Assembly: GCA_020859985.1 (NCBI GenBank)
Contig: JAJBVD010000041.1
Span: 35,387-99,386, forward strand
Source: Clostridiales bacterium
Lineage (GTDB): Bacteria > Bacillota > Clostridia > Lachnospirales > Lachnospiraceae
Reading direction: 5' to 3'
DNA: 64,000 nt
Below, one piece after another: positions 23,356 through 52,058 of this stretch. Every line of letters begins with the position of its first letter. Position 1 is the first letter of the stretch. Position numbers and translations under genes: made by a program. The notes below the pieces were generated by a model. It was not told where the DNA came from, ran no database searches, and worked only from the letters and a program-made list of their open reading frames with translations.

Positions 23356-23404
23356 GGCCGCGTCTGGCATTAGCCAGAGATATTCCCTGCGCGGCCTTGC
23401 GCAT
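23356..23404 (+). repeat. S2 structured repeat, copy a
   Basis: Outer stem GGCCGCG (23356-23362) / CGCGGCC (23390-23396) encloses inner hairpin CTGGC-ATTA-GCCAG (23364-23377). It is followed by TTGCGCAT. Confidence 0.7.
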
Positions 23405-23445
23405 CAATCGGATGGGGGAGCCCTCTCTCCCCTATCCGCCCGCGC

Positions 23446-23495
23446 GAGCCGGGTGCGGCTTTAGCCGCAAAACTCCTTGCCCGGCTCTGCGCATA
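23446..23495 (+). repeat. S2 structured repeat, copy b
   Basis: Outer stem GAGCCGGG (23446-23453) / CCCGGCTC (23480-23487); inner hairpin GCGGC-TTTA-GCCGC (23455-23468); spacer AAAACTCCTTG; trailing TGCGCATA. Stems differ from copy a but the architecture is the same. Confidence 0.75.
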
Positions 23496-23522
23496 AAATC
23501 GGAGGACGTTCTGTCCTCCGAT
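23495..23522 (-). terminator. Hairpin terminator of the candidate ncRNA unit
   Basis: A 10-bp perfect stem (ATCGGAGGAC / GTCCTCCGAT) with 5-nt loop, followed on the minus strand by TTTTA. The U-run is short, so strength is uncertain. Confidence 0.5.
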
Positions 23523-24310
23523 CGTATATTTTATTTAATTTGATTTTTTATTTATCTGTATGTTCTATACAGTTTCATGGAGAGTGATCTTCCTGTTTAT
23601 TTATAAATCCAATCCGTCGTTTCTTTACACGAAAGATTCTCTTTATAAATTCTGCGGCATAAATTTTATCTTTTGAAGATTCATTCTTTTTTCTCTGAAT
23701 TCTTCTTCGAATGTGATATTAATCTCCTGATCCTTCTCTCTTCCAATCTTTTGATCTTCTGATCTTCTGATCTTCTGATTTTAAATCTTAGGATCCTTTG
23801 TCTGATCTCACCTCATAAATGAAATCTCATCTCAGGTATCTCACTCTTTTGATGGATGCCCCTGATATCTTTTTTGGTATCTTTTTTGATATCTTTGTTT
23901 GCAGACTTTTATTTTATACTTTGATCTCATATGTCATTTCATATGTTCTGCGTGGATTCATTTCTCGTCTGAATCTCTTTTCTGTGAATGTAATTCGAAA
24001 TCGGTATCGAACTTTTTATAAATGACTTCTACTGAATCCTGTCAGCACAGGCCACTTTCTGATTCACATTTTTTACGCTGTTCGGCTTTTGCCTTCCGAT
24101 TTTAAATATGTCTGCTTTTCACATTCGAAATTGTATTTAATATTATAATTTTATAATTAAATATTGTACTTATTTTGTATTTATCTTTATAAATACTTTT
24201 GTACTCTTTACGAACCTGCGAGTCCGTATCTCTTCTTCTTAGGATAAATGTGCTCTGCCGATTGATTCTGTATGCTCTCCATCGATCGTTCTTTTACGAT
24301 ATCTCTTGAA

Positions 24311-24394
24311 TCAGATCCGGCTGAGGTCTTTTTTACAGGAAACATCTATCCCGCCGCAATTGTTTTGAAGTAAAGAATGTGAGACTGTGTCCAC
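24311..24394 (-). CDS. Possible 27-residue peptide at the 5' end of the candidate ncRNA
   Basis: GTG 24394 lies nine bases after AGGAGG, about 75 nt into the predicted transcript, and reads to TGA at 24311 (MDTVSHSLLQNNCGGIDVSC and seven further residues). Unrecognised. It may be a leader peptide or a chance frame; an overlapping 45-codon frame (MFPVKKTSAGSDSRD...) has a weaker start. Confidence 0.25.
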   Translation of the reverse strand: MDTVSHSLLQNNCGGIDVSCKKDLSRI

Positions 24395-24475
24395 TGGAAT
24401 CGACCTCCTCTCTTTCTTGTCATCGTCTATAGGTACTTGATCTATAGGAACAACAATTTGTTTGTTGATGGTTGT

Positions 24476-24504
24476 ACTATACCATGGCTTTTTCAATTTG
24501 TCAA
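24476..24504 (-). promoter_or_regulatory. Strong sigma-A promoter of the candidate ncRNA
   Basis: Perfect TTGACA (24499-24504), 17-bp spacer, TATAGT (24476-24481). Confidence 0.75.
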
Positions 24505-24627
24505 CACTATTTTTGAAATTTTATTCAATTTATTTTATTCGAACTGTTTTTATTTTAATTGATGTATTAATTTTGTGAATAATATATAAAATTCAGTCAA
24601 TTTATGCGCATCCCCGGAGGGTTTTAT

Positions 24628-24684
24628 GATATAGGAAACAAAGTTTCCTATATCAATCGAGTAGGGGACAAGTCCCCCTACTCG
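24628..24684. repeat. Two adjacent long hairpins
   Basis: GATATAGGAAAC / GTTTCCTATATC (12 bp, 3-nt loop; 24628-24654) is followed by CGAGTAGGGGAC / GTCCCCCTACTCG (24658-24684, one bulge). The end of the second, CCTACTCGTCYGCGC, recurs at 23339-23354, so both cassettes share modules. Confidence 0.6.
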
Positions 24685-24691
24685 TCCGCGC

Positions 24692-24747
24692 GGCGCTGGA
24701 TGTCCAGTGGACATCCGTTTAGCGCCGACCGAAGCGGAGCGGAGACC
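24692..24747 (+). repeat. S1 structured repeat, copy a
   Basis: Outer stem GGCGC (24692-24696) / GCGCC (24722-24726), then T, inner stem GGATGTCC / GGACATCC (24698-24716) with AGT loop, GTTTA, and the tail GACCGAAGCGGAGCGGAGAC. Confidence 0.75.
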
Positions 24748-24793
24748 CGGGCGCGGCTTTAGCCGCAAAACACCTTGCCCGGCTCTGCGCATA
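24747..24793 (+). repeat. S2 structured repeat, copy c
   Basis: Outer stem CCGGGC (24747-24752) / GCCCGG (24777-24782) around GCGGC-TTTA-GCCGC (24753-24766). It is followed by CTCTGCGCATA and abuts S1 copy a, forming one cassette next to the murA terminator. Confidence 0.75.
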
Positions 24794-24794
24794 T

Positions 24795-24828
24795 AAAAAG
24801 GGGAAAGCCATGTATCCCGGCTTTCCCC
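24795..24828 (-). terminator. murA terminator
   Basis: GGGGAAAGCC (24800-24809) pairs with GGCTTTCCCC (24819-24828); on the minus strand it is followed by TTTTT. Confidence 0.85.
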
Positions 24829-24872
24829 CATACGCTCTCTGTCTATTCCTGTAAGCGTACCATTTTGCCCTG

Positions 24873-26165
24873 TCAGCCTGTCCGCAGACAGAACTTCCGC
24901 GCTTCTTTCTCGCTGCTGATCCGCTCAATCTCCGCCCCAAGGCTTCGAAGCTTCTCATCAAAACACTCATATCCGCGCTGGATATATACAATGTCATCGA
25001 TGGTTGTAATCCCTTCGGCGGCCAGACCCGCGATGACCAATGCTGCGCCCGCGCGCAGATCCGGTGCGCTCAAACGTGCACCTGTCAGCTTCTCTACTCC
25101 CGTGATGATTGCCGTATTGCCCTCTACGCGGACATTGGCGCCCATACGGGTCAATTCATCCATATATTTAAAACGATTCTCAAAAATACTCTCGGTCACA
25201 ATGCTTGTCCCGCGCGCCAAAGCCAGTGTCACGCCGATCTGCGGCTGCATATCCGTCGGATAGCCGGGATACGGCAGAGTCTTGACATTTGTACTGCTCA
25301 ATCGCTTCGACGCCACAACACGCACCGCATTATCAAACTCTTCGACTTCACAATCGATTTCAAGAAGCTTTGCTGTCGTTGCTTCCAGATGCTTTGGAAT
25401 GACATTTTTCACCATCACATCACCCTTGGTCGCAGCAGCCGCAAACATAAATGTACCTGCCTCGATCTGATCCGGAATGATGGAATACTCGGTCCTGTGA
25501 AGCTTCGACACGCCGCGGATACGAATCACGTCCGTACCAGCACCGCGGATGTTGGCTCCCATGCTGTTCAGGAAATTCGCAACATCTACGACATGCGGCT
25601 CACGCGCACAGTTCTCAATAATTGTATAGCCTTCTGCCATCGAAGCCGCCATCATGATATTGATCGTCGCACCGACGGACACTGTATCCAGGAAAATGTG
25701 GCTGCCATGCAGGTGCTCTGCGTTCGCTATGATAAAGCCATTGCGAATCGATACCTTCGCTCCCAGCGCCTTAAACCCTTTAATATGAAGATCAATCGGC
25801 CTGCTGCCAATGTTGCAGCCGCCGGGAAGCGGCACTTCCGCCCTTTTGTATTTGCCAAGAAGAGCTCCTATCAGATAGTAAGAAGCCCGAATTTTCTTAA
25901 TATATTCGTAATCAACGCTGAGGTCGCCAATATCCTTGCTGTTCAGCATGACCGCATGGCGCGTGATGCGCTCTACGCGAACGCCGATGCTCTCCATTGC
26001 TTCCAGAAGAACATTGATATCCCGGACGTCCGGCAGATTGTCGATCAGCACGGTATCATCGGTCATAATGGCCGCCGCAAGAATACCGAGCGCTGCGTTT
26101 TTTGCCCCGGAGATCTCCACCTCGCCCGCAAGCGGGATGCCTCCTCTGATGATATACTGTTCCAT
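24873..26165 (-). CDS. murA: UDP-N-acetylglucosamine 1-carboxyvinyltransferase
   Basis: 430 residues. MEQYIIRGGIPLAGEVEISG with GAKNAAL opens the EPSP-synthase-like fold, and LPGGCNIGSRPIDLH holds the catalytic Cys (Cys115 in E. coli numbering). It transfers enolpyruvate from PEP to UDP-GlcNAc, the first committed step of peptidoglycan synthesis. Length matches the family. Firmicutes often have two murA copies; which paralogue this is cannot be told. Own promoter and terminator. Confidence 0.95.
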   Translation of the reverse strand: MEQYIIRGGIPLAGEVEISGAKNAALGILAAAIMTDDTVLIDNLPDVRDINVLLEAMESIGVRVERITRHAVMLNSKDIGDLSVDYEYIKKIRASYYLIGALLGKYKRAEVPLPGGCNIGSRPIDLHIKGFKALGAKVSIRNGFIIANAEHLHGSHIFLDTVSVGATINIMMAASMAEGYTIIENCAREPHVVDVANFLNSMGANIRGAGTDVIRIRGVSKLHRTEYSIIPDQIEAGTFMFAAAATKGDVMVKNVIPKHLEATTAKLLEIDCEVEEFDNAVRVVASKRLSSTNVKTLPYPGYPTDMQPQIGVTLALARGTSIVTESIFENRFKYMDELTRMGANVRVEGNTAIITGVEKLTGARLSAPDLRAGAALVIAGLAAEGITTIDDIVYIQRGYECFDEKLRSLGAEIERISSEKEARKFCLRTG

Positions 26166-26316
26166 AAGTTACCTCTGCTATTTTTTATCCATACTCCCGT
26201 GCGTCGTCCGTCCTGTCATACACTGGCCTTCCGGTAATCTGTTCTCCGTATATTTTCGGCTCTCCCCTTCCGAAAACTGCCGGAAACGCATTAGCCCACA
26301 AGACGAAATTAGTATC

Positions 26317-26344
26317 AGTATACCACATTTCATTAAATTGTAAA
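26317..26344 (-). promoter_or_regulatory. murA promoter
   Basis: TTTACA (26339-26344), 16 bp ending in TGTGG, TATACT (26317-26322), ~150 bp before the ATG. Confidence 0.55.
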
Positions 26345-26417
26345 CAAAAATTCACAGCTTATAATTTTTTCGTCATAATGAACCAAACATACATTCGGAC
26401 GTGTCCCGGATATTCCA

Positions 26418-27062
26418 TCAGCAGGGAAGTCCGCTTCCTGTGCTCTGCATTTTCCCTTCATCATGCTTTTTGCGGCCTCTGGCCGCCGTATTATTTTTCT
26501 CTTTTCTTCGTACGCTGTATCCAAATGTCCCTAATGCCTTGCCAAGCTCATAGTAGGTGCCATGTGAATACACCATCAGCTCCGCGTCGTTCAGCCGGAG
26601 CTTTCCTTTGTCGTCCAGATACCTGTCGTCCACATCGACGCCGAGCACCTCGGACAAAAACATATGATGAGAGCCGAGCTCCAACACTTCTCTGACGCGG
26701 CACTCAATGTTAACCGGGCTTTCCGCGATCAGCGGAGCGCCGACATGTACCGCCGGTATGGCAGTCAGATGTGCTTCTTTGAATTTATCCACATCGCGGC
26801 CGGATCGGACGCCGCAGTAATCAGCAGCCCGCGCCAGCTTTTTGGTAGTCAGATTGATCACAAATTCGCCGGTGTCCCGGATTATGGAATACGAATAACG
26901 CTCCGGCCGGATGGAAATGGAGACCATAGCCGGATTCGTACATACCGTCCCCGCCCAGGCAACCGTAATGATATTCGGGCGCTCTTTGGCAGCCGCGCAG
27001 CTCACCATCACAGCAGGCAGCGGATAAAGCATGTTGCCGGGCTTCCAGTTCTGTCTGCTCAT
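26418..27062 (-). CDS. Flavin reductase-like, FMN-binding split-barrel protein
   Basis: 214 residues. It has the flavin reductase-like pattern MLYPLPAVMVSCAAAKERPN, ITVAWAGTVCTNPAMVSISI and GEFVINL, followed by an HHMFLSEVLGVDVDD block. The family binds FMN and reduces flavin or acts as a flavoprotein. The last ~30 residues are basic and low-complexity. It begins 3 bp after the pyrophosphatase gene ends, so it is the last gene of the deo operon; a role in nucleoside metabolism is not evident. Confidence 0.85.
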   Translation of the reverse strand: MSRQNWKPGNMLYPLPAVMVSCAAAKERPNIITVAWAGTVCTNPAMVSISIRPERYSYSIIRDTGEFVINLTTKKLARAADYCGVRSGRDVDKFKEAHLTAIPAVHVGAPLIAESPVNIECRVREVLELGSHHMFLSEVLGVDVDDRYLDDKGKLRLNDAELMVYSHGTYYELGKALGTFGYSVRRKEKNNTAARGRKKHDEGKMQSTGSGLPC

Positions 27063-27065
27063 GTC

Positions 27066-28838
27066 TCACGCCCCCGTAATCTGGCTGATACCGGTCATCA
27101 GAGACGGGATCAGCTGCTTTTTGCGGGAAACCACGCCCTTTAAATAAGCACTGCCGTTTTCCAGCTTTTCATGGAAGGATGCGTCAATAATATCCTCAGC
27201 GTCCTTTCCGAAGCAGATCAGATCCGTCCCTTCCTCTATGATGTTTGTCATCATAAAACAAACCATATCCAGCTCTTTTGAGTCGACCAGATTTTTAAGG
27301 AATGGTACGATCCGTTCCCGGATGCCCTGCAGCTCCTCCGTGCTCATGAACGTGATCTGACCGACTCCGATGTTCCGATCGCCAACTTCAAATTTCTTGA
27401 AATCCTGATAGCAGATCTCCTCCGCCGTCTTTGTGGAAAGATCGCTGCCGGCAGTAAACATTTTTTTCGCAAAATCCTCACATTCAATCCCGGCAATCTT
27501 TGCCAGCGCAGTTGCCGCCGCAACGTCCATCGGCGTGCAGGTCGGCGAACGGAAGATCAGCGTATCCGAAAGGATCGCACTGCACATGATCTCCGCGATA
27601 TCCGCCGGAATCTCAACACCATTCTCAAGAAACATCTGATAGATGATCGTGCAGGTGCAGCCGACCGGCTGATTGCGGAAATAGACCGGATTGATCGTCT
27701 CCAGCGAGCCAAGCCTGTGGTGGTCGATAATCTCCATAATCTCGGCGTCGAGCACATTGTCTACCGCCTGAGAGACCTCATTGTGATCCACCAGAATCAG
27801 GTTGCGCTTGCGCACACCCAGCAGGTTCCGTCTGGAGATCATTCCCACATAACTGCCGTTCCGATCCAGAATCGGGAAATCACGATATCGTTTTTTAGAC
27901 ATCGTGTCCCGTATTTCTTCTGTATAGTCGTCGAGGCGGAAGGTTACAAGATTTTCTTCCTCCCGCATAAAAAAGCTTACCGGCATGCTCTGGTTGATCA
28001 GGCGGGCCACCGCGTAGGTATCCAGCGGCGTCACGATGATCGTGCAGCCCCGCTCTCTGGCCATACTCTGGATCGTGCGGGATACAGGTGCGCCCAGACA
28101 GACGACGATGCAGTCCGCCTGCATCTCGATCGCGCAAAGCTGCCCCTCGTAACGGTTGCCGAGAATGACCATATCATGCTCATCGATGTAGTTCTCCATC
28201 ACATCCGGGTTCGCCGCCGCGATCACAACCTTACCATTGTCAAACACACCCTCCGGGTCGCCGACAATCATCTCTGCCTCCAGCGTCTCCAGAATATTCC
28301 GGTACGGCGTCTTCGCTGTGGAAACGATCGAACTGGAATATTCTTCCATGTAGGATTTCGCGATATCGTTGATCGTGATCAAACCCTTCAGCTTGTTTTT
28401 GGAATTCGTGATCGGTAGCGTAAAAATATTCTGCTCCTGCATCAGGGTCCATGCCCGTTTTAAGGAAATATTGCTGCGCACGCCATCCACCTTGCGGATC
28501 TCCATGTCCTTGACACGTGTGCCAATGTTTTCCAGTAAAATCGGCGTTTTCGCGTGAAAGCGTTCCAGCACATACTGTGTCTCCGCGCTGATCCGGCCGG
28601 CACGGGCCGCCACATAATTATAAGAAGGCGGCAGGTCGCTCCGACCATTAAAAGACGCTTCGTGTGGGACGGAGCTCTGATTTTTCAGATAAGCGTACGC
28701 GATCGCGGAACAAATGGAATCCGTGTCCGGATTTTTGTGTCCCACCACACAGACCGTTCGTCTGCGCTGCTTCTGACCGCCCAACCCGGCCTGATCCTTT
28801 TTCGCCTCGGTTGATGTCATTTTTTCTTCATTTGCCAT
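27066..28838 (-). CDS. CBS/DRTGG-regulated manganese-dependent inorganic pyrophosphatase
   Basis: 590 residues; ATG follows GAGGAG. Domain order: N-terminal DHH part (VVGHKNPDTDSICSA, ~30-110), a first CBS motif (~115-170), a DRTGG domain (~185-290), a second CBS motif (~300-355), then the DHH core continues (DHNEVSQAV, IIDHHRLG) and a DHHA2 C-terminus. It hydrolyses pyrophosphate; in the family AMP/ADP inhibit and ATP or Ap4A activate through the CBS pair. Location after pdp suggests removal of PPi or energy-sensing in nucleoside salvage. Confidence 0.92.
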   Translation of the reverse strand: MANEEKMTSTEAKKDQAGLGGQKQRRRTVCVVGHKNPDTDSICSAIAYAYLKNQSSVPHEASFNGRSDLPPSYNYVAARAGRISAETQYVLERFHAKTPILLENIGTRVKDMEIRKVDGVRSNISLKRAWTLMQEQNIFTLPITNSKNKLKGLITINDIAKSYMEEYSSSIVSTAKTPYRNILETLEAEMIVGDPEGVFDNGKVVIAAANPDVMENYIDEHDMVILGNRYEGQLCAIEMQADCIVVCLGAPVSRTIQSMARERGCTIIVTPLDTYAVARLINQSMPVSFFMREEENLVTFRLDDYTEEIRDTMSKKRYRDFPILDRNGSYVGMISRRNLLGVRKRNLILVDHNEVSQAVDNVLDAEIMEIIDHHRLGSLETINPVYFRNQPVGCTCTIIYQMFLENGVEIPADIAEIMCSAILSDTLIFRSPTCTPMDVAAATALAKIAGIECEDFAKKMFTAGSDLSTKTAEEICYQDFKKFEVGDRNIGVGQITFMSTEELQGIRERIVPFLKNLVDSKELDMVCFMMTNIIEEGTDLICFGKDAEDIIDASFHEKLENGSAYLKGVVSRKKQLIPSLMTGISQITGA

Positions 28839-28848
28839 TTAATTCTCC

Positions 28849-30165
28849 TCATTCCACGCCCCGCTCGGTCACCCGCGCGAAAATCAGCGGTTTCCTCTCC
28901 GGCGCTGTCCTGCCGACTGCCACCGCCTCCAGAAAACGCTCTTTTGCGGCGTCCACCTTTGTCGGATCGGAGGTCAGCAAGGTTGCGACAGCTTCACCCT
29001 TTTTCACGGAATCCCCGGTCTTTTTCTTCAGGATAATGCCGGCGAGCGGATCAATCTCGCTCTCCTTGGTCTCGCGTCCCGCGCCGAGCAGCATCGCGGC
29101 AACTCCGATTCCTGCGGAATCCATCTTCGTAATATAACCGCCTTTTTCCGCCGTCACATCCACCTCTACGGGAGCACGGCCAAGCTTTTCCGGATGACGG
29201 ATGCACTCTGCATCGCCGCCCTGCGCCTCGATCATGGCAGCAAGCTTTTCCAGTGCTGCTCCGGATTTCATAGCATCCTGCGCCATCCCTCTGCAGTAAT
29301 CCATCTCCCCGATCCCAGCGAGACACAGCAGCTGGGAGGCAAGTGCAAGACTTACGTCTGTCAGATCCTTCGGTCCCTGCCCGCGCAGGGTGCGAACTGC
29401 CTCCTCTACCTCCAGCGAATTCCCGATCTGGTATCCCAGCGGAATATCCATGTTCGTGATCAGCGCAGCAATCCGCTTTCCGTTATGTACACCGATCGCC
29501 ACCATTTTTTCTGCCAGCAGGACAGAGTCCTCGACCGTCTTCATAAACGCGCCGCTGCCCGTCTTGACATCGAGCACGATACAATCGCTCCCTGCCGCCA
29601 GCTTTTTGCTCATGATAGAAGCGGCGATCAGCGGAATGCTGTCCACCGTGGCGGTCACATCACGTAAAGCGTATAGCTTTTTGTCCGCGGGCGCCAGATT
29701 CGGCGACTGCCCCGTCACCGCAATCCCCGTGCGCCGCACCACATCAAGAAATTCCTCCTTTGAAAGCGAAGTGCGCGTCCCCGGGATGGATTCCAGCTTG
29801 TCAACCGTTCCGCCGGTATGTCCCAGCCCGCGGCCGGACATCTTCGCTACCGTGCACCCGCACGCGGCCACGACCGGCGCTACAATCAGAGTCGTCTTAT
29901 CCCCGACACCGCCGGTGGAATGTTTATCCACCTTCACACCCGGCAGATCGGACAGATCCAGCTGCTCGCCGGATTTCGCCATCGCGTCTGTCAGAAGTGC
30001 CGTCTCCTCATCCGTCATTCCCTTAAAATACACGGCCATCAGAAACGCCGACATCTGATAGTCCGGAATGTCGCCCTTCGTGTAGCCTGTGATCATCCAT
30101 CGGATCTCCTCCTCCGACAGTGCAAGGCCGCTGCGTTTCTTCATAATAATATCATACATTCTCAT
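28849..30165 (-). CDS. pdp: Pyrimidine-nucleoside phosphorylase
   Basis: 438 residues. VDKHSTGGVGDKTTL and SGRGLGHTGGTVDKLE are the thymidine/pyrimidine phosphorylase signatures. It cleaves uridine and thymidine with phosphate to base plus (deoxy)ribose-1-phosphate, which DeoB then isomerises. It lies between cdd and the pyrophosphatase gene in the minus-strand deo operon, 10 bp from the latter. Confidence 0.95.
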   Translation of the reverse strand: MRMYDIIMKKRSGLALSEEEIRWMITGYTKGDIPDYQMSAFLMAVYFKGMTDEETALLTDAMAKSGEQLDLSDLPGVKVDKHSTGGVGDKTTLIVAPVVAACGCTVAKMSGRGLGHTGGTVDKLESIPGTRTSLSKEEFLDVVRRTGIAVTGQSPNLAPADKKLYALRDVTATVDSIPLIAASIMSKKLAAGSDCIVLDVKTGSGAFMKTVEDSVLLAEKMVAIGVHNGKRIAALITNMDIPLGYQIGNSLEVEEAVRTLRGQGPKDLTDVSLALASQLLCLAGIGEMDYCRGMAQDAMKSGAALEKLAAMIEAQGGDAECIRHPEKLGRAPVEVDVTAEKGGYITKMDSAGIGVAAMLLGAGRETKESEIDPLAGIILKKKTGDSVKKGEAVATLLTSDPTKVDAAKERFLEAVAVGRTAPERKPLIFARVTERGVE

Positions 30166-30251
30166 CGAAAATCTTCCTCCACCTTATTTGTGACGAATCA
30201 CGGTTACCTCTGGGCAAGGCCCGCCTCAGCATCCGCCGCAGTCACGTTGAT

Positions 30252-30695: not shown

Positions 30696-30716
30696 CTTAC
30701 TTCATCTCCTGTTCTT

Positions 30717-30743
30717 GTAACTGTTCAGTACCTTCACAGTTAC
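30717..30743. repeat. R repeat copy 3
   Basis: Perfect arms GTAACTGT / ACAGTTAC with centre TCAGTACCTTC. It overlaps the TAA of deoB (30740-30742), so the element supplies the stop codon of the gene. Confidence 0.8.
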
Positions 30744-31945
30744 CTGTTCTTTACTTCCTTCCAGAAGCTCTTGCCGTCCAGACTCTCCGGAATTCCGAAC
30801 ATCTCCAATACAGTCGCGGCGATATCCGCAAAGCTGCTTCTGGTGCCGATAGAGACGCCCGGCCGCACGCTTTTGCCGTAGAGGAGCATCGGCACATATT
30901 CACGTGAATGATCCGTACCCGGAAATCCGGGGTCGCAGCCATGGTCGGCGGTGATCAGCACTACATCATTGTCATTTAATTTCTCCATCATCTGCCCCAG
31001 CTGCCGGTCAAAAAGAGTCGCAGCGGCCGCGTAACCGTCGATGTCGTTGCGGTGTCCGTAAAGCATGTCAAAGTCCACCAGATTCACAAAGCAGAGTCCC
31101 GTAAATTCTTCATCCATCAGAGCCAGCGTCTTGTTCATGCCATCCTCATTATCTGAGATGGGTGTCGTGTGCGCTATGCCCTGACCTGCGAAAATATCAT
31201 TGATCTTCCCAATCCCATAGGTGTCAAAACCGTGCTCCATCAGGCTCACCAGCATCGTGCGCTTCGGCGGGATGAGCGAAAAATCATGACGGTTCCGCGT
31301 CCTCGTAAAATCGGAAGCATCCTTCCCCACAAAAGGCCGCGCGATCACGCGCCCTACGCCGTGCTTCCCCTGCAGGATCGCACGCGCCTTCCGGCAGTCC
31401 TCATACAGCTCTTCGAGCGGTACAACCTCCTCGTGCGCTGCAATCTGAAACACGCTGTCTGCCGAAGTGTACACGATCAGATCACCGGTTCTCATATGCT
31501 CTTCGCCGTAATCGCGAATCACATCCGTGCCGGAATACGGCCTGTTACAGAGCACACCGCGCCCGGTCTGCTCCCGGAACGGTGCAAGCACTTCCTCCGG
31601 AAAGCCTTCCGGATACACCGGCATCGGCTCCGGTGAGATCATCCCTGCAATCTCCCAGTGTCCAATCGTCGTGTCCTTGCCCATGGAGCTCTCCCGCAGC
31701 CGTCCGTAAGCGGCGATCGGAGCTTTTATAGCAGCCGCGCAGCGCGCAGCGTTTTTCGAATCGCGGCAGGTTACGCCGTCGATATTGAACATCCCGAACC
31801 GCTCCAGATTCGGTGTATCGTAACGGTCCGATTTTACAATCGAAGCCAGCGTATTGGCTCCGACGTCCCCAAACAGATCCGCGTCCGGCTCATAGCCAAT
31901 GCCGAAGCTGTCGAGGACGATAAGAAATACCCGTTTGATATCCAT
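30740..31945 (-). CDS. deoB: Phosphopentomutase
   Basis: 401 residues. Alkaline-phosphatase-superfamily metal site: VFLIVLDSFGIGYEPDA at the N-terminus, GKDTTIGHWE with the phosphorylated Thr, and TADHGCDPGFPGTDHSREYVP late in the chain. It interconverts (deoxy)ribose 1- and 5-phosphate, linking phosphorolysis to central metabolism. Second gene of the operon. Confidence 0.95.
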   Translation of the reverse strand: MDIKRVFLIVLDSFGIGYEPDADLFGDVGANTLASIVKSDRYDTPNLERFGMFNIDGVTCRDSKNAARCAAAIKAPIAAYGRLRESSMGKDTTIGHWEIAGMISPEPMPVYPEGFPEEVLAPFREQTGRGVLCNRPYSGTDVIRDYGEEHMRTGDLIVYTSADSVFQIAAHEEVVPLEELYEDCRKARAILQGKHGVGRVIARPFVGKDASDFTRTRNRHDFSLIPPKRTMLVSLMEHGFDTYGIGKINDIFAGQGIAHTTPISDNEDGMNKTLALMDEEFTGLCFVNLVDFDMLYGHRNDIDGYAAAATLFDRQLGQMMEKLNDNDVVLITADHGCDPGFPGTDHSREYVPMLLYGKSVRPGVSIGTRSSFADIAATVLEMFGIPESLDGKSFWKEVKNR

Positions 31946-32008
31946 GCGACATCCTTCCTCTCTGAACCTTTATATCTGCTTAGCCGAAAAAGCTGCAGAT
32001 GGTTCGTT

Positions 32009-34410: not shown

Positions 34411-35457
34411 ATGAAGCATTTTTTCATGAACAGTGTTCTTTGCGGCCGGAAACAGGCAGCGGAGCGCTTCCATGATCGCTTTTTGCCGCGGCTCGCGGCA
34501 TCTTTTATACTGATCTGCCTGACGGGCTGCTTTTGCTGCTTCGCCCTGCCCGTCTGCTCAAGTGCGGCTCCGCTATCATCCGGACTCTGCAGGGGTGAAG
34601 ATATTGTCGACGATGAGAAGCTGTTTATCGAACATGCCCGCCAGAATTGGCGGTTCTCGAAGCTTCTGGCAAACGATGCAGGCAGCACGGATTCAAACAT
34701 TTCAAATCCTTATGAAGAGGACGGCAGCTATGAGGATTTCGTGTTATACATTCAGACAGACAAGGTGTACAGTAAACTGACCGCTGAAACCATCGCGGGG
34801 TGGGTATCCGTCTCCGGCGGCAATGAGCTGATTTATGATGAAGACGCACTGAGCGAATGGGTGCAGGAGCTGGCCGATCAGTACAACACGCTGGAAAACG
34901 GGCGGGAATTCACAACAAGCCTTGGCGAGACGATCACGATCACCGAAGGAAATTACGGCTGGAGCATGGACGCGGACGCTACCGCGGAGCGAATTCTGGG
35001 TCTGATCAAAGAAGGCGGCAGCGGCAGAGTCATGACGGAGGCGGTGTGGACACAGACCGGCGCAGCCTTTACTCTGGAGGGCGACATCGGCGACAGCTAC
35101 ATTGAGGCCGATCTCACCAATCAAAAAGTATGGTTTTACAAGAACGGCAAGCTTCTGGGCGAATCTGACTGTGTCAGCGGCGATTATGAAAACAGCCGGA
35201 CGCCGGAGGGTGTTTATACGATATATTATATGAAATCACCCGCCACCTTACGGGGCGCGGATTACGTGTCTGAAGTGGATTATTTTATGGCTTATTTCGG
35301 CAACTACGGTCTGCACGACGCCTCCTGGCGCTCCGAATTTGGCGGCGACATTTATCTGACCGACGGGTCCCACGGCTGCATCAATCTGCCGGATGAGATG
35401 GCGCAGCTGCTCTATGAAAACGTGGATTACGGGTATGTGGTAGTGACGTATTATTGA
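34411..35457 (+). CDS. L,D-transpeptidase (YkuD) with peptidoglycan-binding-4-like domain
   Basis: 348 residues; ATG 34411 after GGAGG. A hydrophobic segment (SFILICLTGCFCCFALPV) acts as signal/anchor; LTGC could be a lipobox. Residues ~105-215 resemble the PG_binding_4 domain that precedes YkuD in clostridial enzymes. The YkuD catalytic motif is YGLHDASW ... SHGCINLP with the nucleophilic Cys. It would form 3-3 peptidoglycan cross-links or attach proteins outside the membrane. mscS follows 58 bp downstream. Confidence 0.9.
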   Translation: MKHFFMNSVLCGRKQAAERFHDRFLPRLAASFILICLTGCFCCFALPVCSSAAPLSSGLCRGEDIVDDEKLFIEHARQNWRFSKLLANDAGSTDSNISNPYEEDGSYEDFVLYIQTDKVYSKLTAETIAGWVSVSGGNELIYDEDALSEWVQELADQYNTLENGREFTTSLGETITITEGNYGWSMDADATAERILGLIKEGGSGRVMTEAVWTQTGAAFTLEGDIGDSYIEADLTNQKVWFYKNGKLLGESDCVSGDYENSRTPEGVYTIYYMKSPATLRGADYVSEVDYFMAYFGNYGLHDASWRSEFGGDIYLTDGSHGCINLPDEMAQLLYENVDYGYVVVTYY

Positions 35458-36373: not shown

Positions 36374-36416
36374 TCTTTACTCAAATATCAGGAAAAACCT
36401 CATCGCGGCGCTGAAT

Positions 36417-36472
36417 GGTCCTGCGTGCAGGGGCACGCGTTTAGGACCGACCGAAGCGGCAGCGGAGACGAG
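36417..36472 (+). repeat. S1 structured repeat, copy b
   Basis: Outer stem GGTCC (36417-36421) / GGACC (36444-36448), then T, inner stem GCGTGC / GCACGC (36423-36438) with AGGG loop, GTTTA, tail GACCGAAGCGGCAGCGGAGA. It lies between mscS and cobO. All paired bases of the stems differ in composition from copy a while pairing is kept. Confidence 0.75.
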
Positions 36473-42731: not shown

Positions 42732-42733
42732 GA

Positions 42734-42962: not shown

Positions 42963-42979
42963 TTACTTTTTGTAAAAAT

Positions 42980-43008: not shown

Positions 43009-43027
43009 TGACTTTTTTCAAATCAAA

Positions 43028-43071: not shown

Positions 43072-43171
43072 TATCAGATAAATCCATCATTTCTGACCAT
43101 CAGCTTGACAATAACAGCGCATCGTAATAAATTAAAGCTATATTAAACGAAAAAAGTCTGGTGAATTACCA

Positions 43172-44233: not shown

Positions 44234-44297
44234 ACAACATCATTGAACGATATTAAATGCAAAATATTATCCTGAAAATTACGGAGACAACACAATC

Positions 44298-46055: not shown

Positions 46056-46056
46056 A

Positions 46057-46083
46057 TTATCTGTGAAGGTACTGAACAGTTAC
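46057..46083. repeat. R repeat copy 4 (one arm degenerate)
   Basis: CTGTGAAGGTACTGAACAG followed by TTAC is the reverse complement of the 30717 copy over 23 bases; the other arm is degenerate. It lies between the convergent ends of the MoxR-like and AlbA_2 genes. Confidence 0.7.
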
Positions 46084-46085
46084 TA

Positions 46086-47339
46086 TTATTTTATCACGTA
46101 CTTCGTTCCTCTCCCCCTGCCCTCAATCTTCACAACACCATTTTTCTCCATATCTTTCAGTAACTGCGTTGTCTTTGACTTTCCAAACGGGACGTACGGG
46201 GCAATCTCACTGATTGATTTCAACACCGTCTTACTTAAAATCCGATATACCATTCTTTCATCTTCCGATAAATTCAGATTCTTCTCAAAAACCGGAAGTA
46301 CAATCTTAATTGTATTTTCTGTTACTTCAAATTCCGGTTGTTTCATCCCTTCTTCATAGAGCTGTTTTATCCGTAAAATCCCCGTGCCGAATATTTCCAC
46401 AAACCCCAGTCTGTAAAATACATTTGCGAGGTTCCTGTTTCTTAAAACAGAAAGTTTTCCTGATAGATACTCCTCCTCTGTAATTCCGGCCGGCAACCCT
46501 CCGGGAGAAATAATTTCGATTCTGTCATCAAACATCGAAACTCTTATCTGAGATTCCACATCCCACACTCTATGGATCAGCGCATTTGCAATTGCCTCTC
46601 TGAATGCAGGTTCCGGTATTATCTCAATCTTCTTTCTGTCAGCACCCTGTATTTCTTCGTACTGATAGTAGTCCCTGAATACCTCCAACGTTTTTTCATA
46701 TACAGTCAAAGCAGATACATGATCAAATGTCGCCCTTTTTTGAATTACACTGATGTTTTCGCCAAACTTCACAATATCAATTCCGGGAAAATGATTGCTG
46801 TCCGCCAGAATACCAGCCGCGTTATTATATCCGCCGGTATTGTTATATAAATTCAGCGTTTTCAAAGTATCCTGATTAAAGGTCTCAATCTGGATACTTT
46901 CTTTTAATTTCTGAAATAAAACATCAAAAGTCAATTCCTGGTCGTCACACGGCAATTCCTCGAATCTGATATTTTTACCATCCAAAATCAGTCTTGATAA
47001 TTCCAGCAGATCCACCTCGATTGTCGCAGTATCATTTCGTTTATATGCTTTTGATTTATATAAATATGGCTTTTGCATTCCGCTCTTTACGGTCAGTTTT
47101 ATCGTCCTGTCATTGTTTTGCAGCTCCAGTGTGTAATCAGGCTGTGGAGTAATACTGTCATTAATTTTATTTTCAATATTCAGGCACGCCTGCTTTGCAT
47201 CCGACAGTCCTTTGATATTGCCAGCGTTATCAATGCCAAAAAATATCTCTCCGCCATCATAATTTGAAAAGGCACTTACTGTTTTCAGAAATGTATTTGT
47301 AATTGTTTCTTTAAATTCCGTGGTTCTCGTTTCGCGCAT
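46086..47339 (-). CDS. AlbA_2/HATPase_c_4 transcriptional regulator-like protein, copy 1
   Basis: 417 residues; ATG after AGGGA. N-terminal AlbA_2 (Schlafen-like) domain (TEFKETITNTFLKTVSAFSN, GGEIFFGIDNAGNIKGL), then an ATP-binding HATPase_c_4-type domain (EPAFREAIANALIHRVWD, IEIISPGGLPAGI), and a C-terminal winged helix (ISEIAPYVPFGKSKTTQLLKD). These COG2865 proteins are thought to be ATP-dependent DNA-binding regulators, often in accessory regions. A 32-bp palindrome covers its promoter, suggesting autoregulation. Confidence 0.85.
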   Translation of the reverse strand: MRETRTTEFKETITNTFLKTVSAFSNYDGGEIFFGIDNAGNIKGLSDAKQACLNIENKINDSITPQPDYTLELQNNDRTIKLTVKSGMQKPYLYKSKAYKRNDTATIEVDLLELSRLILDGKNIRFEELPCDDQELTFDVLFQKLKESIQIETFNQDTLKTLNLYNNTGGYNNAAGILADSNHFPGIDIVKFGENISVIQKRATFDHVSALTVYEKTLEVFRDYYQYEEIQGADRKKIEIIPEPAFREAIANALIHRVWDVESQIRVSMFDDRIEIISPGGLPAGITEEEYLSGKLSVLRNRNLANVFYRLGFVEIFGTGILRIKQLYEEGMKQPEFEVTENTIKIVLPVFEKNLNLSEDERMVYRILSKTVLKSISEIAPYVPFGKSKTTQLLKDMEKNGVVKIEGRGRGTKYVIK

Positions 47340-47372
47340 ATGTTTTTTTCCCTTCCAGGTTTTGTAACTGAT

Positions 47373-47425
47373 ATTATACTTGTAAATACGCGAAAAATCA
47401 ATCGTAAATTTTTACGATTGATTTT
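47373..47425 (-). promoter_or_regulatory. Promoter with 32-bp palindromic operator over the -35
   Basis: Minus strand TTGATT (47396-47401), 17 bp, TATAAT (47373-47378). The -35 lies inside a palindrome at 47394-47425 with 15-bp perfect arms (AAAATCAATCGTAAA and its complement) and a 2-bp centre. This is a near-ideal repressor site. Confidence 0.7.
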
Positions 47426-47504
47426 AACCACTCGCAGTCCTGCGCATAACAACAAACCAGTACGGGAGCAACTGCCCTCAGACTGACAATTCGGGGATGA
47501 TCAT

Positions 47505-48314
47505 CTATGATTCCACTTTCGAAAACAGAATCCGGTCGTTGTCGAGTTCCTTGCCCGCACCGGTACGGAATTTCTCCAGAAGGCCGTCGACCGTCAGTCC
47601 GGCACGCTCCTCACCGCTGATGTCGAGAACGATATGACCGTCGTCCATCATCAGGGTGCGGTTGCCCAGTTCCAGGGCAGAGTGCATATTATGCGTGATC
47701 ATCAGGCAGGCCAGATGATTTTCTTCCACAACGCGCTTTGTGAGTGCGATAACCTTGTCAGCCGTAGCCGGATCAAGCGCCGCCGTGTGCTCGTCGAGCA
47801 GCAGGATTTTCGGAGGAACGAGAGTCGCCATCAGCAGAGTGAGCGCCTGCCGCTGTCCGCCGGAGAGCAGGCCGACCGGCTGTTTCATGCGATCTTCCAG
47901 CCCCATATCCAAAAGCGCCAGCCGTTCGCGGAACATTTTGCGCTCGGCGGAGCTGATTCTGGAAAATACAGCTTTCTTTTTTGCCACGCGCAGATAAGCA
48001 AGCGCCAGATTTTCCTCGATAGTCATGTGGGGCGCGGTGCCTTTCATCGGATCCTGGAACAGGCGGCCGATCTCCACCGCGCGCTTGTATTCCGGCACAT
48101 AGGTGATATCGCAGTCGTCCAGATACACATGCCCCTCGTCCGGGAAAAAACTCCCGCCGATGCAGTTGAACAGGGTCGATTTTCCGGCTCCGTTGCTGCC
48201 GATGATCGTGGCAAAATCGCCGTCATTCACGGTCAGGCTCACGCCCGCGAGGGCGACCTTTTCATTGACCGTGCCGGGATTAAAAACTTTTTTTACATTT
48301 GTAATCTTAAGCAT
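47505..48314 (-). CDS. ABC transporter ATP-binding protein (COG1101 type)
   Basis: 269 residues. Walker A GSNGAGKST, signature LLSGGQRQAL, Walker B ILLLDEHTAALD, and the family's terminal MDDGHIVLD. It is the energising subunit of the transporter formed with the two genes upstream (permease, binding protein). The ATPase of COG1101/COG4120/COG2984 systems; related clostridial systems are predicted to carry aromatic amino acids. Confidence 0.9.
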   Translation of the reverse strand: MLKITNVKKVFNPGTVNEKVALAGVSLTVNDGDFATIIGSNGAGKSTLFNCIGGSFFPDEGHVYLDDCDITYVPEYKRAVEIGRLFQDPMKGTAPHMTIEENLALAYLRVAKKKAVFSRISSAERKMFRERLALLDMGLEDRMKQPVGLLSGGQRQALTLLMATLVPPKILLLDEHTAALDPATADKVIALTKRVVEENHLACLMITHNMHSALELGNRTLMMDDGHIVLDISGEERAGLTVDGLLEKFRTGAGKELDNDRILFSKVES

Positions 48315-48410
48315 ATCCTGCTCCTCATATTCGCTATAACAGTTCAGAACAGCATCGAAAAAAGCGGTCTGTGGCCTGCTGTTCTGAGCAGTCGCATTTC
48401 AAGTCGCATT

Positions 48411-49325
48411 TCAAGCCGCGTTTGCGGCCTTCTGTCTCTGCAACGCCACACGTGACTTCAGATACGGCGCGGCAATGGCAATGGCTACGATCACCGCGGA
48501 CACCAGCTTCATCGCTTCCGCCGGTACATGCAGACGCAGGGCGATGGCAATGACAAAACGATACACACAGCTGCCGACGATGACGCCGACGATGCGCCGC
48601 GGAATCGAGCGTTTGCCGAGCAGCGTCTCACCGATGATCAGGCTGGCAAGCGCGATGGTCACCATGCCGGTGCCCATGTTGATGTCGCAGGATTTCTGGT
48701 ACTGTCCGATCAGACAGCCGGAAAGCGCCGTCAGCGAACCGGAGATGCAAAGCCCCACCGTAATGGTAAAGCCCGGGTTGATGCTCGAAGCGCGCACCAT
48801 GTCCTCATTGTCGCCGGTCGCGCGAATGGAAAGTCCGAGCCTGGTTCCGAGGAACCATGCGAGGAGCACACAGACGATGAGAACGATGATCGCCGACAGG
48901 ATCAGTTTATACCAGGTCGCGCCAAAGAAATCCTTGCACAGACTGTAAATCGTATCTTTCTTGAAAATAGACAAATTGGCCGAGAAGCCCATCACCGCCA
49001 GATTGACCGTGTAAAGTCCGGTATTTACGATGATTCCGGAAAGAATCGGCTCCACGCCAAGACGGGTCTGCAAAGACGCCATAATAAATCCGGAGCAGAC
49101 GCCTGCTGCCATCGCCGCGAAAATTGCCAGAATCGGATGCCCCATGATCGTCACCTGTGCGCCGACCGCACAGCCAAGCGTAAAGCACCCGTCTGTCGAA
49201 AGGTCCGCAATATTTAAAATCGAATAACTCAAAAACAGAGCCAGTGCGATCAAACCGTAGATGATACCCAGCTCCAGAGCATTTGTCACGACTGAGAGGG
49301 AAATGAGTGATGTGAGAAAACTCAT
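48411..49325 (-). CDS. ABC transporter permease (COG4120 type)
   Basis: 304 residues from ATG 49325, after AAAGGAG. Eight or more membrane helices; LFLSYSILNIADLSTDGCF is typical of branched-chain-like permeases. Lies between the binding protein and ATPase genes. Confidence 0.9.
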   Translation of the reverse strand: MSFLTSLISLSVVTNALELGIIYGLIALALFLSYSILNIADLSTDGCFTLGCAVGAQVTIMGHPILAIFAAMAAGVCSGFIMASLQTRLGVEPILSGIIVNTGLYTVNLAVMGFSANLSIFKKDTIYSLCKDFFGATWYKLILSAIIVLIVCVLLAWFLGTRLGLSIRATGDNEDMVRASSINPGFTITVGLCISGSLTALSGCLIGQYQKSCDINMGTGMVTIALASLIIGETLLGKRSIPRRIVGVIVGSCVYRFVIAIALRLHVPAEAMKLVSAVIVAIAIAAPYLKSRVALQRQKAANAA

Positions 49326-49474
49326 ATGGTTTCTGCTCCTTTCTGCTAACAAAATGGTAACGGTATATATGTCTTTCATTTGAAATGCAAAATTCCTTTC
49401 GCAGCACAAATCAAAGACATATCCTCCTGACAGCCGGGCAGGGAATGTCCTGCCCGACCGTTTTTTTTACTTTT

Positions 49475-50488
49475 TTACTCCATATCCTCAGAAGTTACAA
49501 CCTCTACGATCTGTGTCGCTACCTCTTCGAAACCGCTGTAGTCGATGCCAAGCGCTTCCGCAGTCTCCGTGTTGACGGTGACAATACCATTGTCAAAGGT
49601 CACGATCGGAGTCGTTGCCGGGTCTGCGCCCTGCAGAATCTCAACCGCAAGATCAGCCGTCTCTTTGCCGAGCAGCTCATAGTCTACGCCAAAACCTACG
49701 AATGCGCCGTTCGCCGCGAAGGAGTCCGCACCGGTGTAATGTGCGATGCCGTTTTCGATCAGAGTCTCATAGATGGAAAGTTCTGCTGCCATAACCGTGT
49801 TGTCGGTCGGGGTGAAGATGGCCTGTACGCCGTCCGCTGCCAGAGATTCCACTGCCTGCTGGATCTCGGAGGTGCTGGTACCGGTTGCTTCCACGTACTC
49901 AATGCCTTTCTCATCCAAATATGCCTTCGCGTCCGCGATCGGCTGTGTGGAGGAATCCTCAGAAAGGCTGTACAGCAGACCTACCTTGTCGAGATCCGGA
50001 TTCGCGATAAACATCAGATCCAGAATTGCCTCGGTATTCAGCGCGTCGCTCGTACCTGTGATAATGCCGCCCGGCTCTTCCATTGACTCCACCAGCTCAG
50101 AGCCGACCGGATCGGAAACAGCCGCAAATACAATCGGGATGTCCTTGCCGGAATCCTCGATCTCTTCCTGCAGAATACTTACCGGCATCGTCGCAATCGG
50201 GATCACGATGTCTACTTCATCGTCATTAACCAGCTGAGACGCCTGCTGCATCATTGTCGAGGAATCTGCGTTACCGCTGTACACATAGCCCTCATAGACA
50301 TAGGTGTCTTCACCTTCCTCAGAGAGTGCGTCCAGCTCTGCCAGAATCGCGTTCTCGATCTGGTCCAGAGAAGCGTGATCCATGAGCTTCAAAATACCTA
50401 CCTTGTACTCCTCTGCCATTGCCGTGCCTGATACAGACATCGCTGCCATTGCTGCCGCAATTGCGCATACTGCAAATTTCTTTTTCAT
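49475..50488 (-). CDS. ABC transporter substrate-binding protein (COG2984)
   Basis: 337 residues from ATG 50488, after AAAGGAG; upstream in-frame ATGs are not used. Signal peptide KKKFAVCAIAAAMAAMSVSG with AMA-EE cleavage, no lipobox Cys. ABC_sub_bind fold: YKVGILKLMDHASLDQIENA, VPIATMPVS-like region, ADGVQAIFTPTDNTVMA. TrpX-like proteins of this family bind tryptophan or tyrosine, but ligand identity here is inferred. First gene of the operon. Confidence 0.9.
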   Translation of the reverse strand: MKKKFAVCAIAAAMAAMSVSGTAMAEEYKVGILKLMDHASLDQIENAILAELDALSEEGEDTYVYEGYVYSGNADSSTMMQQASQLVNDDEVDIVIPIATMPVSILQEEIEDSGKDIPIVFAAVSDPVGSELVESMEEPGGIITGTSDALNTEAILDLMFIANPDLDKVGLLYSLSEDSSTQPIADAKAYLDEKGIEYVEATGTSTSEIQQAVESLAADGVQAIFTPTDNTVMAAELSIYETLIENGIAHYTGADSFAANGAFVGFGVDYELLGKETADLAVEILQGADPATTPIVTFDNGIVTVNTETAEALGIDYSGFEEVATQIVEVVTSEDME

Positions 50489-50590
50489 TTTGGTTTCTCC
50501 TTTCATTTTGGACATTATTTCTAATTCAGCCCCTTGCGCTTGCCGCAAGACACCGAACAGTTACCTGTTGCTATTTCCGCATCCTTCCCG

Positions 50591-50676
50591 GCAGAAAATC
50601 TGTCGGAAGCGGGAAATATCATTCATCACACCAGCAGAAAAACTGCCGGAAGCGGGAAATATCGTTCATCACACCG
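50591..50676. repeat. 43-bp tandem duplication at the end of larA
   Basis: Two units (50591-50633 and 50634-50676) share GGAAGCGGGAAATATC and CATCACACC. The second unit runs into the 3' end of the lactate racemase gene and includes its stop. Confidence 0.75.
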
Positions 50677-51940
50677 GCACAACGCTTCCCGCATAGGGAA
50701 GCACATATACCTTTTTCCCGGTGAAATCAATCTTTTTCACTAATTCCGCCAGATCAGCGGACGCCTCCATCCCCATCGGGCGGACCATTTCAGGATCAAG
50801 CTCCGTCAGTGTGTAGACGTGACCGGCTTTGTTCAGCTGCTCCACTGTCAAATAAAATATGTAGCCGCCGATGGTAAAATCCGCCCGCAAGGAAGCATCC
50901 AGATGTCCCTCCTTAAGCGGCTTCAGCCAGCTGAAATAATCAGGCGCACCGCCGCCCTCCGGGCATTTGCAGGTCCAGAGCATAGTGCCGCCCGGCTTTA
51001 ACGCCCGCATGGCGTTCAGCATGCCCTTGCAGCCCTGATACAGATTCATATCCTTCGGCGCGCCGCCGCTGGAACAGAGCACAATGTCCGCCGGTTCTTT
51101 CACTTCGATCTCATAGCATTTCCTCTGGAAGTCGCAGCTCGCCTCCCAGGCAGCGTCCATCTCACCCGAGAAAATACCGCTGTGTATGCCGCTCGCGGCC
51201 ACCACAAGATTAATGCCGAAATCCGCGTGAACCAGATGCGCAGCCTCCATCATATCCTCATGGATCGGGTTGTCCGTCAGCTTACAGCAGCCGACGCGGG
51301 CATCTGTCATCGCTTTTTCCGGGTCAAGCGCACGCCTGTGATTCTGGCGGATCGAATCACGACCCGACACGCCCGGCAGCAGGTTTTTCCGTCCTCCGCC
51401 GAATCCGGCCATCATATGGTGGACCGTGCCGCCCACGACGATGACCCTGCGCCCCACCACCAGCGGGTTCACGCACACCTCGGTACCCCGGGACGTCGTC
51501 CCGACGTAGACCAGATCCGGCGCGTCGCAGTCATGATCGACCACGCGCACCCGGTCAACGACCTTCTGCGAGCAAATCTTCACAAGCTCCTGCGGTGTGG
51601 AATGCCGGTGCGTTCCCACTGCGATCAGGACAACTATCCGCTCATACGCCACACCGATTTTGTCATGGAGATAATCGACCAGCAGCGGCATCACCTGATC
51701 CTGATGCATCCAGCTTCTCGTGACATCGCTGACCACGATCGTTACTTCATCTTCTCTCCCGATCACTTCGGCCAGCGGCTTCCCGCCGATCACACCATCC
51801 TCGATGGAATGTACAAACGCCGCCTTCAGATCGGTGATCTCCTCCATCGGATTCGGGAGGATCGTCTCGACCGAGGCCGCCCCGCTGATCTCAAATTCCA
51901 CCTGTTCCTCGCCGTATCCGAGGGAAATTTTTGCGTCCAT
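50669..51940 (-). CDS. larA: Lactate racemase family protein (LarA, DUF2088)
   Basis: 423 residues; ATG after AAAGGAAG. VSDVTRSWMHQDQ, AVGTHRHSTPQE, GGTVHHMMAGFGGGRKNLLPG and the following HRRA segment match LarA, whose His residues and Lys hold the nickel-pincer cofactor. LarA interconverts D- and L-lactate; relatives act on other 2-hydroxyacids. The cofactor genes larB, larC and larE are not in this window, so they must be elsewhere or the protein uses another route. 128 bp separate it from the ECF operon, occupied by an S1 repeat. Confidence 0.87.
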   Translation of the reverse strand: MDAKISLGYGEEQVEFEISGAASVETILPNPMEEITDLKAAFVHSIEDGVIGGKPLAEVIGREDEVTIVVSDVTRSWMHQDQVMPLLVDYLHDKIGVAYERIVVLIAVGTHRHSTPQELVKICSQKVVDRVRVVDHDCDAPDLVYVGTTSRGTEVCVNPLVVGRRVIVVGGTVHHMMAGFGGGRKNLLPGVSGRDSIRQNHRRALDPEKAMTDARVGCCKLTDNPIHEDMMEAAHLVHADFGINLVVAASGIHSGIFSGEMDAAWEASCDFQRKCYEIEVKEPADIVLCSSGGAPKDMNLYQGCKGMLNAMRALKPGGTMLWTCKCPEGGGAPDYFSWLKPLKEGHLDASLRADFTIGGYIFYLTVEQLNKAGHVYTLTELDPEMVRPMGMEASADLAELVKKIDFTGKKVYVLPYAGSVVPV

Positions 51941-51999
51941 ACGCCGCCCGCTTCCTTTCTGTAAAGTCCACCTACTATATGATACACGGATTGCTGCGT

Positions 52000-52058
52000 G
52001 CTTCGGTCTCCGCTGCCGCTCCGGTCCGCGCTAACCGAGCGCCACTGGCGCTCAGCGC
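52000..52058 (-). repeat. S1 structured repeat, copy c
   Basis: Minus strand: outer stem GCGC / GCGC, T, inner stem GAGCGCC / GGCGCTC with AGT loop, GGTTA, then GGACCGGAGCGGCAGCGGAG. Same order as copies a and b with different stem sequences. It lies between ecfT and larA. Confidence 0.75.

Follow-up and report, generated by a model that had tools for sequence, protein, structure and literature searches.

S1, a nested-hairpin repeat of Lachnospirales that is probably a miniature mobile DNA element

S1 copies in the window

The window analyzed here is a 64,000-nucleotide (nt) stretch (positions 35387–99386 of contig C89) of the 3.8-Mb draft genome of a Clostridiales bacterium, and it contains three copies, as well as shorter pieces, of a repeat termed S1. 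The S1 unit is 53–56 bp long and consists of a nested hairpin followed by a fixed 3′ tail of 20–21 nt. The S1 features are given below with their scores from the covariance model R1, where applicable.

24692..24746, plus strand: S1 copy 1; 87.6 bits, E 6e-18, the copy being itself a training row of the model
36417..36469, plus strand: S1 copy 2; 49.1 bits; flanked by MscS-like and cobO-like genes
52006..52059, minus strand: S1 copy 3; 53.8 bits; flanked by cbiQ-like and larA-like genes
36407..36416, plus strand: GGCGCTGAAT, apparent left half of an older S1, directly before copy 2, assigned from its sequence
18491..18516, minus strand: S1 remnant, a tail without the nested hairpin; 24.6 bits

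The original prediction had placed three copies here with a common order of parts, and this order was found in the sequence of each: outer stem, T, inner hairpin, GTTT or GGTT linker, A with the closing outer stem, and tail. Specifically, copy 1 has an outer stem GGCGCT/AGCGCC, an 8-bp inner stem GGATGTCC/GGACATCC with loop AGT and the tail GACCGAAGCGGAGCGGAGAC; copy 2 has an outer stem GGTCCT/AGGACC and a 6-bp inner stem GCGTGC with loop AGGG; and copy 3 has an outer stem GGCGCT/AGCGCG, in which the first pair is G-G and five pairs are left, where the original prediction had GCGC, and a 7-bp inner stem GAGCGCC. A degenerate minus-strand tail previously proposed at 18490–18523 is real and corresponds to the remnant at 18491–18516. 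The two tail forms occurred at four places in the window at ≤3 mismatches, compared to 0.00–0.01 in shuffled sequences. The predicted DNA folds of copies 1 and 2 showed the nested shape on both strands with z values of −3.1 to −4.3 (−4.3 and −4.1 for the two strands of copy 1), and copy 3 was predicted to be nested on the complementary strand only (z −2.2), the element strand folding differently. Predicted RNA folds gave z values of −3.4, −1.7 and −0.9 for copies 1, 2 and 3, respectively, with copy 3 taking another fold.

Copy 2 appears to be a nested insertion that interrupted the older S1 at 36407–36416. S1 within S1 was also found at loci L103, L129 (twice), L157 and L003, and the arrangement of copy 2 recurs with the right half retained in L103 and L129 (two places) and in a more diverged form in L003. 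At the place of copy 2, the relative G009 (L245) has a remnant only, the hairpin being gone. Copy 3 is identical at the orthologous site of G013; in G009 and G010 this site is occupied instead by a different S1 plus another hairpin. The original prediction mentioned neither the S1 nesting at copy 2, nor insertions into coding genes, nor the S1-free host at 23440–23494 described below.

Distribution of the family and pairing of its stems

Model R1, trained on nine copies of the source genome having an 8-bp inner stem, matched that genome 68 times at E ≤10, of which 25 matches had E ≤2.9e-8. Within the genus, S1 was found in 42 of 47 genomes with 1–99 copies each (E ≤1e-6) and was not matched in the other five. 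In an even draw across the order, 46 of 294 genomes and 26 of 132 genera gave at least one match at E ≤1e-5; these counts are low due to stricter filters and the few candidates scored per genome. Most of the 46 genomes (39) belong to the family of the source genome, six to a second family and one to a third. The search of the genome and its relatives with a covariance model, as originally proposed, thus recovered a dispersed family whose copies carry compensatory changes. A pattern scan of named genomes gave at least 114 stretches, the titles of those listed being mostly Lachnospiraceae, Blautia, Eubacterium, Choladousia and Clostridiales, with one Oscillospiraceae and one Bacillota; among the stretches listed the nested layout fitted 109 of 116 pattern matches, and the seven that did not fit were set aside. 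There were no exact matches to one 29-letter pattern in viral contigs. Five orthologous copies in relatives shared 98–100% identity, with flanks at 87–100%. No description of S1 was found in the literature searched, most subscription journals being outside its coverage. In L282 (contig C113 of G303, from the second family of the order), S1 units of ~54–56 bp are arranged head to tail in tandem.

Among 93 distinct aligned copies, 98.8% of the stem cells were paired, in an alignment that was fitted to the structure and is thereby biased toward pairing, and changes on both sides were seen at 12 of the 14 pairs. The number of cells changed on both sides was 252 compared to 70.4 ± 16.5 after shuffling, none of 500 shuffles reached any of five covariation measures, and sliding the partners by 1–3 columns lowered pairing to 29–50%. 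The variety of the arms is also directly visible, with outer arms such as GGCGC, GGTGC, GTTGC, GGCTC and GGTCC and many inner arms together with their complements. This strongly supports the earlier claim that pairing is kept despite changed letters. The accompanying view of a structure rather than a mere repeat is not borne out, however, as S1 is also a discrete, sharply bounded mobile repeat for which empty sites exist.

A structured RNA acting from one strand is expected to tolerate G-U pairs far more than A-C mismatches. In 130 distinct copies (after removal of copies under 50 nt and of duplicate sequences), 1707 cells were Watson-Crick pairs, 14 were G.T, 14 A.C and 14 other. Since G.T equals A.C, this points to stems whose pairing is maintained as DNA or on both strands and not as a one-strand RNA, and leaves the RNA flavor of the original prediction, which had suggested looking for transcripts, unsupported. 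A cis-regulator or small RNA selected on one strand would be expected to show covarying nested stems, the three window copies are all intergenic, and the analogous GA-cis motif is filed as RNA in Rfam. Against this explanation, which we consider very unlikely, stand the equal mismatch counts, Rfam scans (the window at gathering score, 12 loci at E ≤1 and 16 loci at E ≤0.1) in which nothing was centered on S1, open reading frames (ORFs) reading through S1 in both orientations, presence/absence variation at orthologous sites, and the 25 largest ORF clusters near S1, in which the only shared neighbors were S1 itself in translation, relaxases and ORFs from common host loci. Where S1 occupies the tail of a GA-cis, the Rfam GA-cis matches reach the S1 edge. 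An intrinsic-terminator test (G+C-rich hairpin plus T run) gave no call on the window copies, the three terminator-like calls in the scanned stretches all lying elsewhere, so that terminators were rejected for these copies and the earlier concern that the copies might prove to be unrelated terminators was not borne out.

Insertion sites and copies within genes

Empty counterparts of S1 insertions were compared at five sites, one of which involves copy 1 and a repeat termed B.

24744..24796, plus strand: right part of a B repeat, host of copy 1; 92% identical to 23446–23498; it overlaps the end of the copy 1 tail by its first bases
23440..23494, plus strand: paralogous B repeat without S1; CGCGC-GAG-CCGGG compared to CGCGC-S1-CCGGG at copy 1

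At copy 1, 55 nt replace GAG of the paralogue. In filled L019 compared to empty L239, 55 nt replace GGGG; in L016 compared to L256, 56 nt stand for CGTT or, as the C is also present in filled L257, 55 nt for GTT; in L009 compared to L274, 54 nt replace GCG; and in L001 compared to 15 S1-free loci of its host repeat, 56 nt stand for GCA, GTA or GAA. The net gain at the five sites was therefore 51–53 nt, with 3–4 nt replaced. The first replaced base was G in all five cases and the first base of S1 is also G, so that this G may belong to the target, in which case 2–3 nt were lost. A tRNA-like remnant and two types of S1-in-S1 make up three further sites that fit roughly, their empty state being reconstructed.

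The flanks of 115 copies (119 before removal of duplicate flanks) were nearly information-free, except for a weak R-G preceding the element and a weak C following it. In the 111 copies left after removal of those with <60 nt of flank, direct repeats of ≥5 nt at the junction occurred in four cases, compared to 2.1% in re-paired flanks, giving no sign of target duplication on S1 insertion. Inverted matches of ≥9 nt between the 60-nt flanks were found in 16 of these copies compared to about 1.4% after re-pairing. The hosts of S1 include GA-cis tails, B repeats and S1 itself, and in L001 S1 takes the place of a palindrome loop (ATCGC-GNA-GCGAT). The L001 host is a repeat of ~130 bp (also in L259–L273) whose terminal inverted repeats are imperfect (GTAACTATTCAGGACAGTACC.../...GGTACTGAACAGTTAC) and whose central palindrome has a GNA triloop; it is present in several copies per relative genome. 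The B repeat (GCGGCTTTAGCCGC, ...TTGCCCGGCTCTGCGCAT) also occurs in L007, L024, L025, L090, L132 and L163 and is probably a further dispersed module. A hairpin module, CTCGCCGGGTGGCATCCCG...CGGGATATTCGCC, was seen inside S1 and elsewhere (L006, L023, L063, L248, L249 and L274); in L006, L023, L063, L248 and L249 a second hairpin module lies between the GTTTAG and the closing arm of S1. At a tRNA-like 3′ half (GGGACGCAGA...GCAGGTTCAAATCCTG), S1 with varied stems is located at the same point in L027, L140, L146, L073 and L194, which may be a hotspot of insertion or else a tRNA-S1 unit that dispersed long ago.

Across S1, 38 ORFs remained open (≥60 aa before and ≥40 aa after), and of the 17 scanned, 13 contained Pfam domains and four none. 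The domains were those of ileS, P-type ATPase, M32 peptidase, MobA-type relaxase, macrodomain, topB, radical SAM, DUF5717, GH2, serine recombinase, acyl-ACP thioesterase, RlmD and phosphoglycerate mutase; the S1-bearing ileS, an isoleucyl-tRNA synthetase by family score, was above the NCBIfam cut-off. For the macrodomain gene, three states were found – element-free (L243 and L244), with an in-frame GA-cis (L239) and with S1 in that GA-cis (L019) – and these show a two-step history in which GA-cis inserted first and S1 then inserted within it in frame, adding 17 aa. The galT of the source genome (L021) contains, following codon 9, both a GA-cis-like element and S1, neither of which is present in G013 (L254) over the first 97 codons compared. 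The idea that S1 is unusually stop-free was rejected, as its stop-free frames were no commoner than in shuffles.

Judged from sequence, S1 is thus a discrete unit with sharp ends, dispersed copies, empty sites, self-insertion and in-frame insertion in genes, and we regard it as probably a miniature, non-autonomous mobile DNA element found in Lachnospirales and folding into the nested hairpin when single-stranded, resembling repetitive extragenic palindromic (REP) elements and Rickettsia palindromic elements (RPE) and forming a new family. Several observations weigh against this assignment. A direct empty counterpart is available at only five of the eight insertion sites described, and L073 also fits a loss-free tRNA-like site if more of the arm bases are taken as target. 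Direct flank matches of ≥9 nt were raised as well (9 of 111 compared to about 2%), and, since copies whose host repeats are related do not represent independent cases, the palindrome enrichment counts loci and not events. A lagging-strand mechanism on single-stranded DNA might give a GC-skew bias, and none was seen (82 of 148 copies, with one copy per locus after short loci, short copies and repeated contexts were dropped). The strand test depends on 28 mismatches of the wobble type, copies 2 and 3 are weakly supported by folding energy alone, and most of the assemblies are drafts or metagenomes, in which repeats can misassemble. The topB frame of L167 continues into relaxase sequence, possibly because the gene is broken or chimeric. 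Over the 130 distinct copies, stop-free frames averaged 3.7 of six per copy compared to 3.8 in shuffles, so that these data do not support coding tolerance as an adaptation. Finally, Y1, RVT_1 and IS110 profiles and neighbor clusters gave no enzyme for S1, and no transposition was observed.

Mobilization and related elements

In the proposed mechanism, S1 would move as a hairpin, either single-stranded or extruded, and a strand-transfer enzyme acting in trans would recognize it by its shape as well as by the invariant loop, linker and tail. S1 would be joined 3′ of a G, with hairpin tips favored. Its stem letters would be free to drift, yet pairing would be required for mobility, and the arms may be corrected against one another or exchanged as whole hairpins. 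Intragenic copies would persist if the net number of nt gained is divisible by three.

No gene recurred as a neighbor in the 25 largest clusters; several of these consisted of translated S1 or host repeats, and in-frame S1 made up part of one relaxase group. A Y1 (HUH) transposase of the IS200/RAYT kind moving S1 in trans as a REP-type element would be in keeping with the small, imperfect REP-like hairpins, the intragenic copies and the lack of target duplication; the source genome has two equal-scoring Y1 matches and 25 of the 47 genus genomes at least one. We nevertheless consider this route unlikely. PF01797 was unmatched in G009 (100% complete, 26 S1 copies) and in the S1-rich genomes G014 (43), G016 (53), G007 (32) and G020 (62), G029 has Y1 matches without an S1 match, and the Y1 gene at L035 carries end hairpins of its own that differ from S1. 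Transposase families were absent from the 25 largest clusters among 2397 ORFs near S1, and the S1 consensus has no GTAG tag. Y1 transposases insert cleanly, unlike the exchange of 3–4 nt seen with S1.

Reverse transcription of a structured RNA into DNA, in the manner of short interspersed elements (SINEs), would have RVT_1 matches in 34 of the 47 genomes in its favor, and some retroelements insert beside hairpins, as S1 does. It is nonetheless highly improbable given that G009 has no RVT_1 match, that G046 has 11 and no S1 match, and that S1 mismatches are symmetric between strands. IS110/IS1111-type recombinases use structured RNA and target palindromes, which S1 favors, and PF01548 was matched in 36 of the 47 genomes (above cut-off in 25). 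The sole G009 match, in a frame of 1510 aa, scored under the cut-off, G046 has 15 PF01548 matches without an S1 match, and 3–4 nt are replaced, so that guidance by such a recombinase is extremely unlikely. Because G009 may have had the enzyme and lost it, the Y1, reverse-transcriptase and IS110 routes are weakened only.

The miniature mobile DNA element proposed here was further compared with known systems. Like S1, RPE are short palindromic mobile DNA, and passages of PMC10969869 describe them in frame within unrelated genes. They belong to another lineage and are ~150 bp long, compared to the 51–53 net nt of S1 at its five empty sites, and S1 differs from them in its hairpin within a hairpin, its long fixed tail and its insertion into hairpins and itself. 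Two RPE types are classed in the CGTC-tagged REP super-family, which, in the passages of PMC3733652 concerned, lacks a dedicated transposase and has a terminal CGTC (or TGTC/CCTC) tag. No CGTC, TGTC or CCTC terminal tag was seen in S1, the consensus ending in GG(C/T)GCT... and ...GGAGAC (GTCTCC on the other strand). The REP/RAYT elements of the GTAG super-family are likewise dispersed short hairpins, both intergenic and intragenic. Unlike them, S1 is longer with a bipartite stem, and several S1-rich genomes are without a Y1 match; the GTAG tetranucleotide was not found in the S1 consensus and the flanks are almost information-free. RAYT/Y1 genes did not track S1 across the genus genomes, although a former transposase may have been lost. 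By its behavior S1 comes nearest to RPE and REPs, but as the tags and the RAYT link fail, it is filed as a new family of the general REP/RPE kind. Miniature inverted-repeat transposable elements (MITEs) are also small, non-autonomous and sometimes located in genes, but the fixed tail of S1 means that its ends are not complementary, and target-site duplication with terminal inverted repeats was not found, the empty sites showing replacement. An integron attC site was also considered, as the GTTTAG of S1 bears a resemblance to an attC core.

S1 also resembles GA-cis, an element of the same genus that occurs in the window as well.

9279..9364, plus strand: GA-cis (Rfam RF02987), a nested hairpin; 49.2 bits; host of S1 elsewhere

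GA-cis shares with S1 a variable outer stem, an inner mini-hairpin, a fixed tail, a dispersed distribution and in-frame copies. It differs in its sequence and tail, its 78-nt unit and its annotation as RNA, and S1 gives no match to the GA-cis model. It was found in 24 of the 47 genus genomes at E ≤0.001 (23 above cut-off), with a maximum of 62 per genome, 40 in the source genome and a tandem spacing of 78 nt in G011. Among 16 scanned loci there were nine GA-cis matches, five passing the gathering score (L070 twice, L239, L019 and L120) and four below it (L172, L085, L021 and L255), perhaps due to S1 interrupting their tails; GA-cis was unmatched in the empty orthologues L243, L244 and L254. 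A degenerate GA-cis-like mini-hairpin is located at 31740–31755 on the plus strand. The stems of 48 unique GA-cis sequences showed 445 Watson-Crick pairs, three G.T, one A.C and two other, in a set from which copies without a clear stem were excluded and which thus favors good pairing. These data suggest that GA-cis is mobile, palindromic DNA inserting in frame rather than (only) RNA. There were 34 distinct arm starts among the 48 sequences. A new stem for each GA-cis move was unsupported, as six near-identical copy pairs share or nearly share their stem, and so was copying of the arms from the target, both arms lying within the insert at the macrodomain and galT sites.

We tentatively propose, as an idea that may well not hold, that S1 and GA-cis belong, together with other hairpin repeats of these genomes, to a single class of mobile DNA that targets hairpins, in which nested DNA hairpins are placed after a G at hairpin tips with 2–3 further nt lost, by a type of enzyme outside the known transposase families. 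If so, hairpin-into-hairpin insertion would build ever larger branched palindromes and new protein segments, and some covariation-supported “structured RNAs” of Rfam would be DNA elements, their covarying positions arising from pairing in DNA. The S1 copies suggest that a mobile DNA palindrome can show strong covariation, so that covariation by itself is no proof of a functional RNA. In the passages concerned, surveys discuss palindromic “structured RNA” candidates, some of them intragenic, as RNAs, terminators or REPs (PMC9067536, PMC8040213). Mobile hairpins such as S1, which reaches 99 copies per genome in a genus of gut bacteria and fits no Rfam 15 family in the scanned loci, are easily mistaken for regulatory RNAs, and GA-cis is a concrete case for re-examination. 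The occurrence of S1-rich and S1-free species within one genus makes the mobilizing enzyme searchable.

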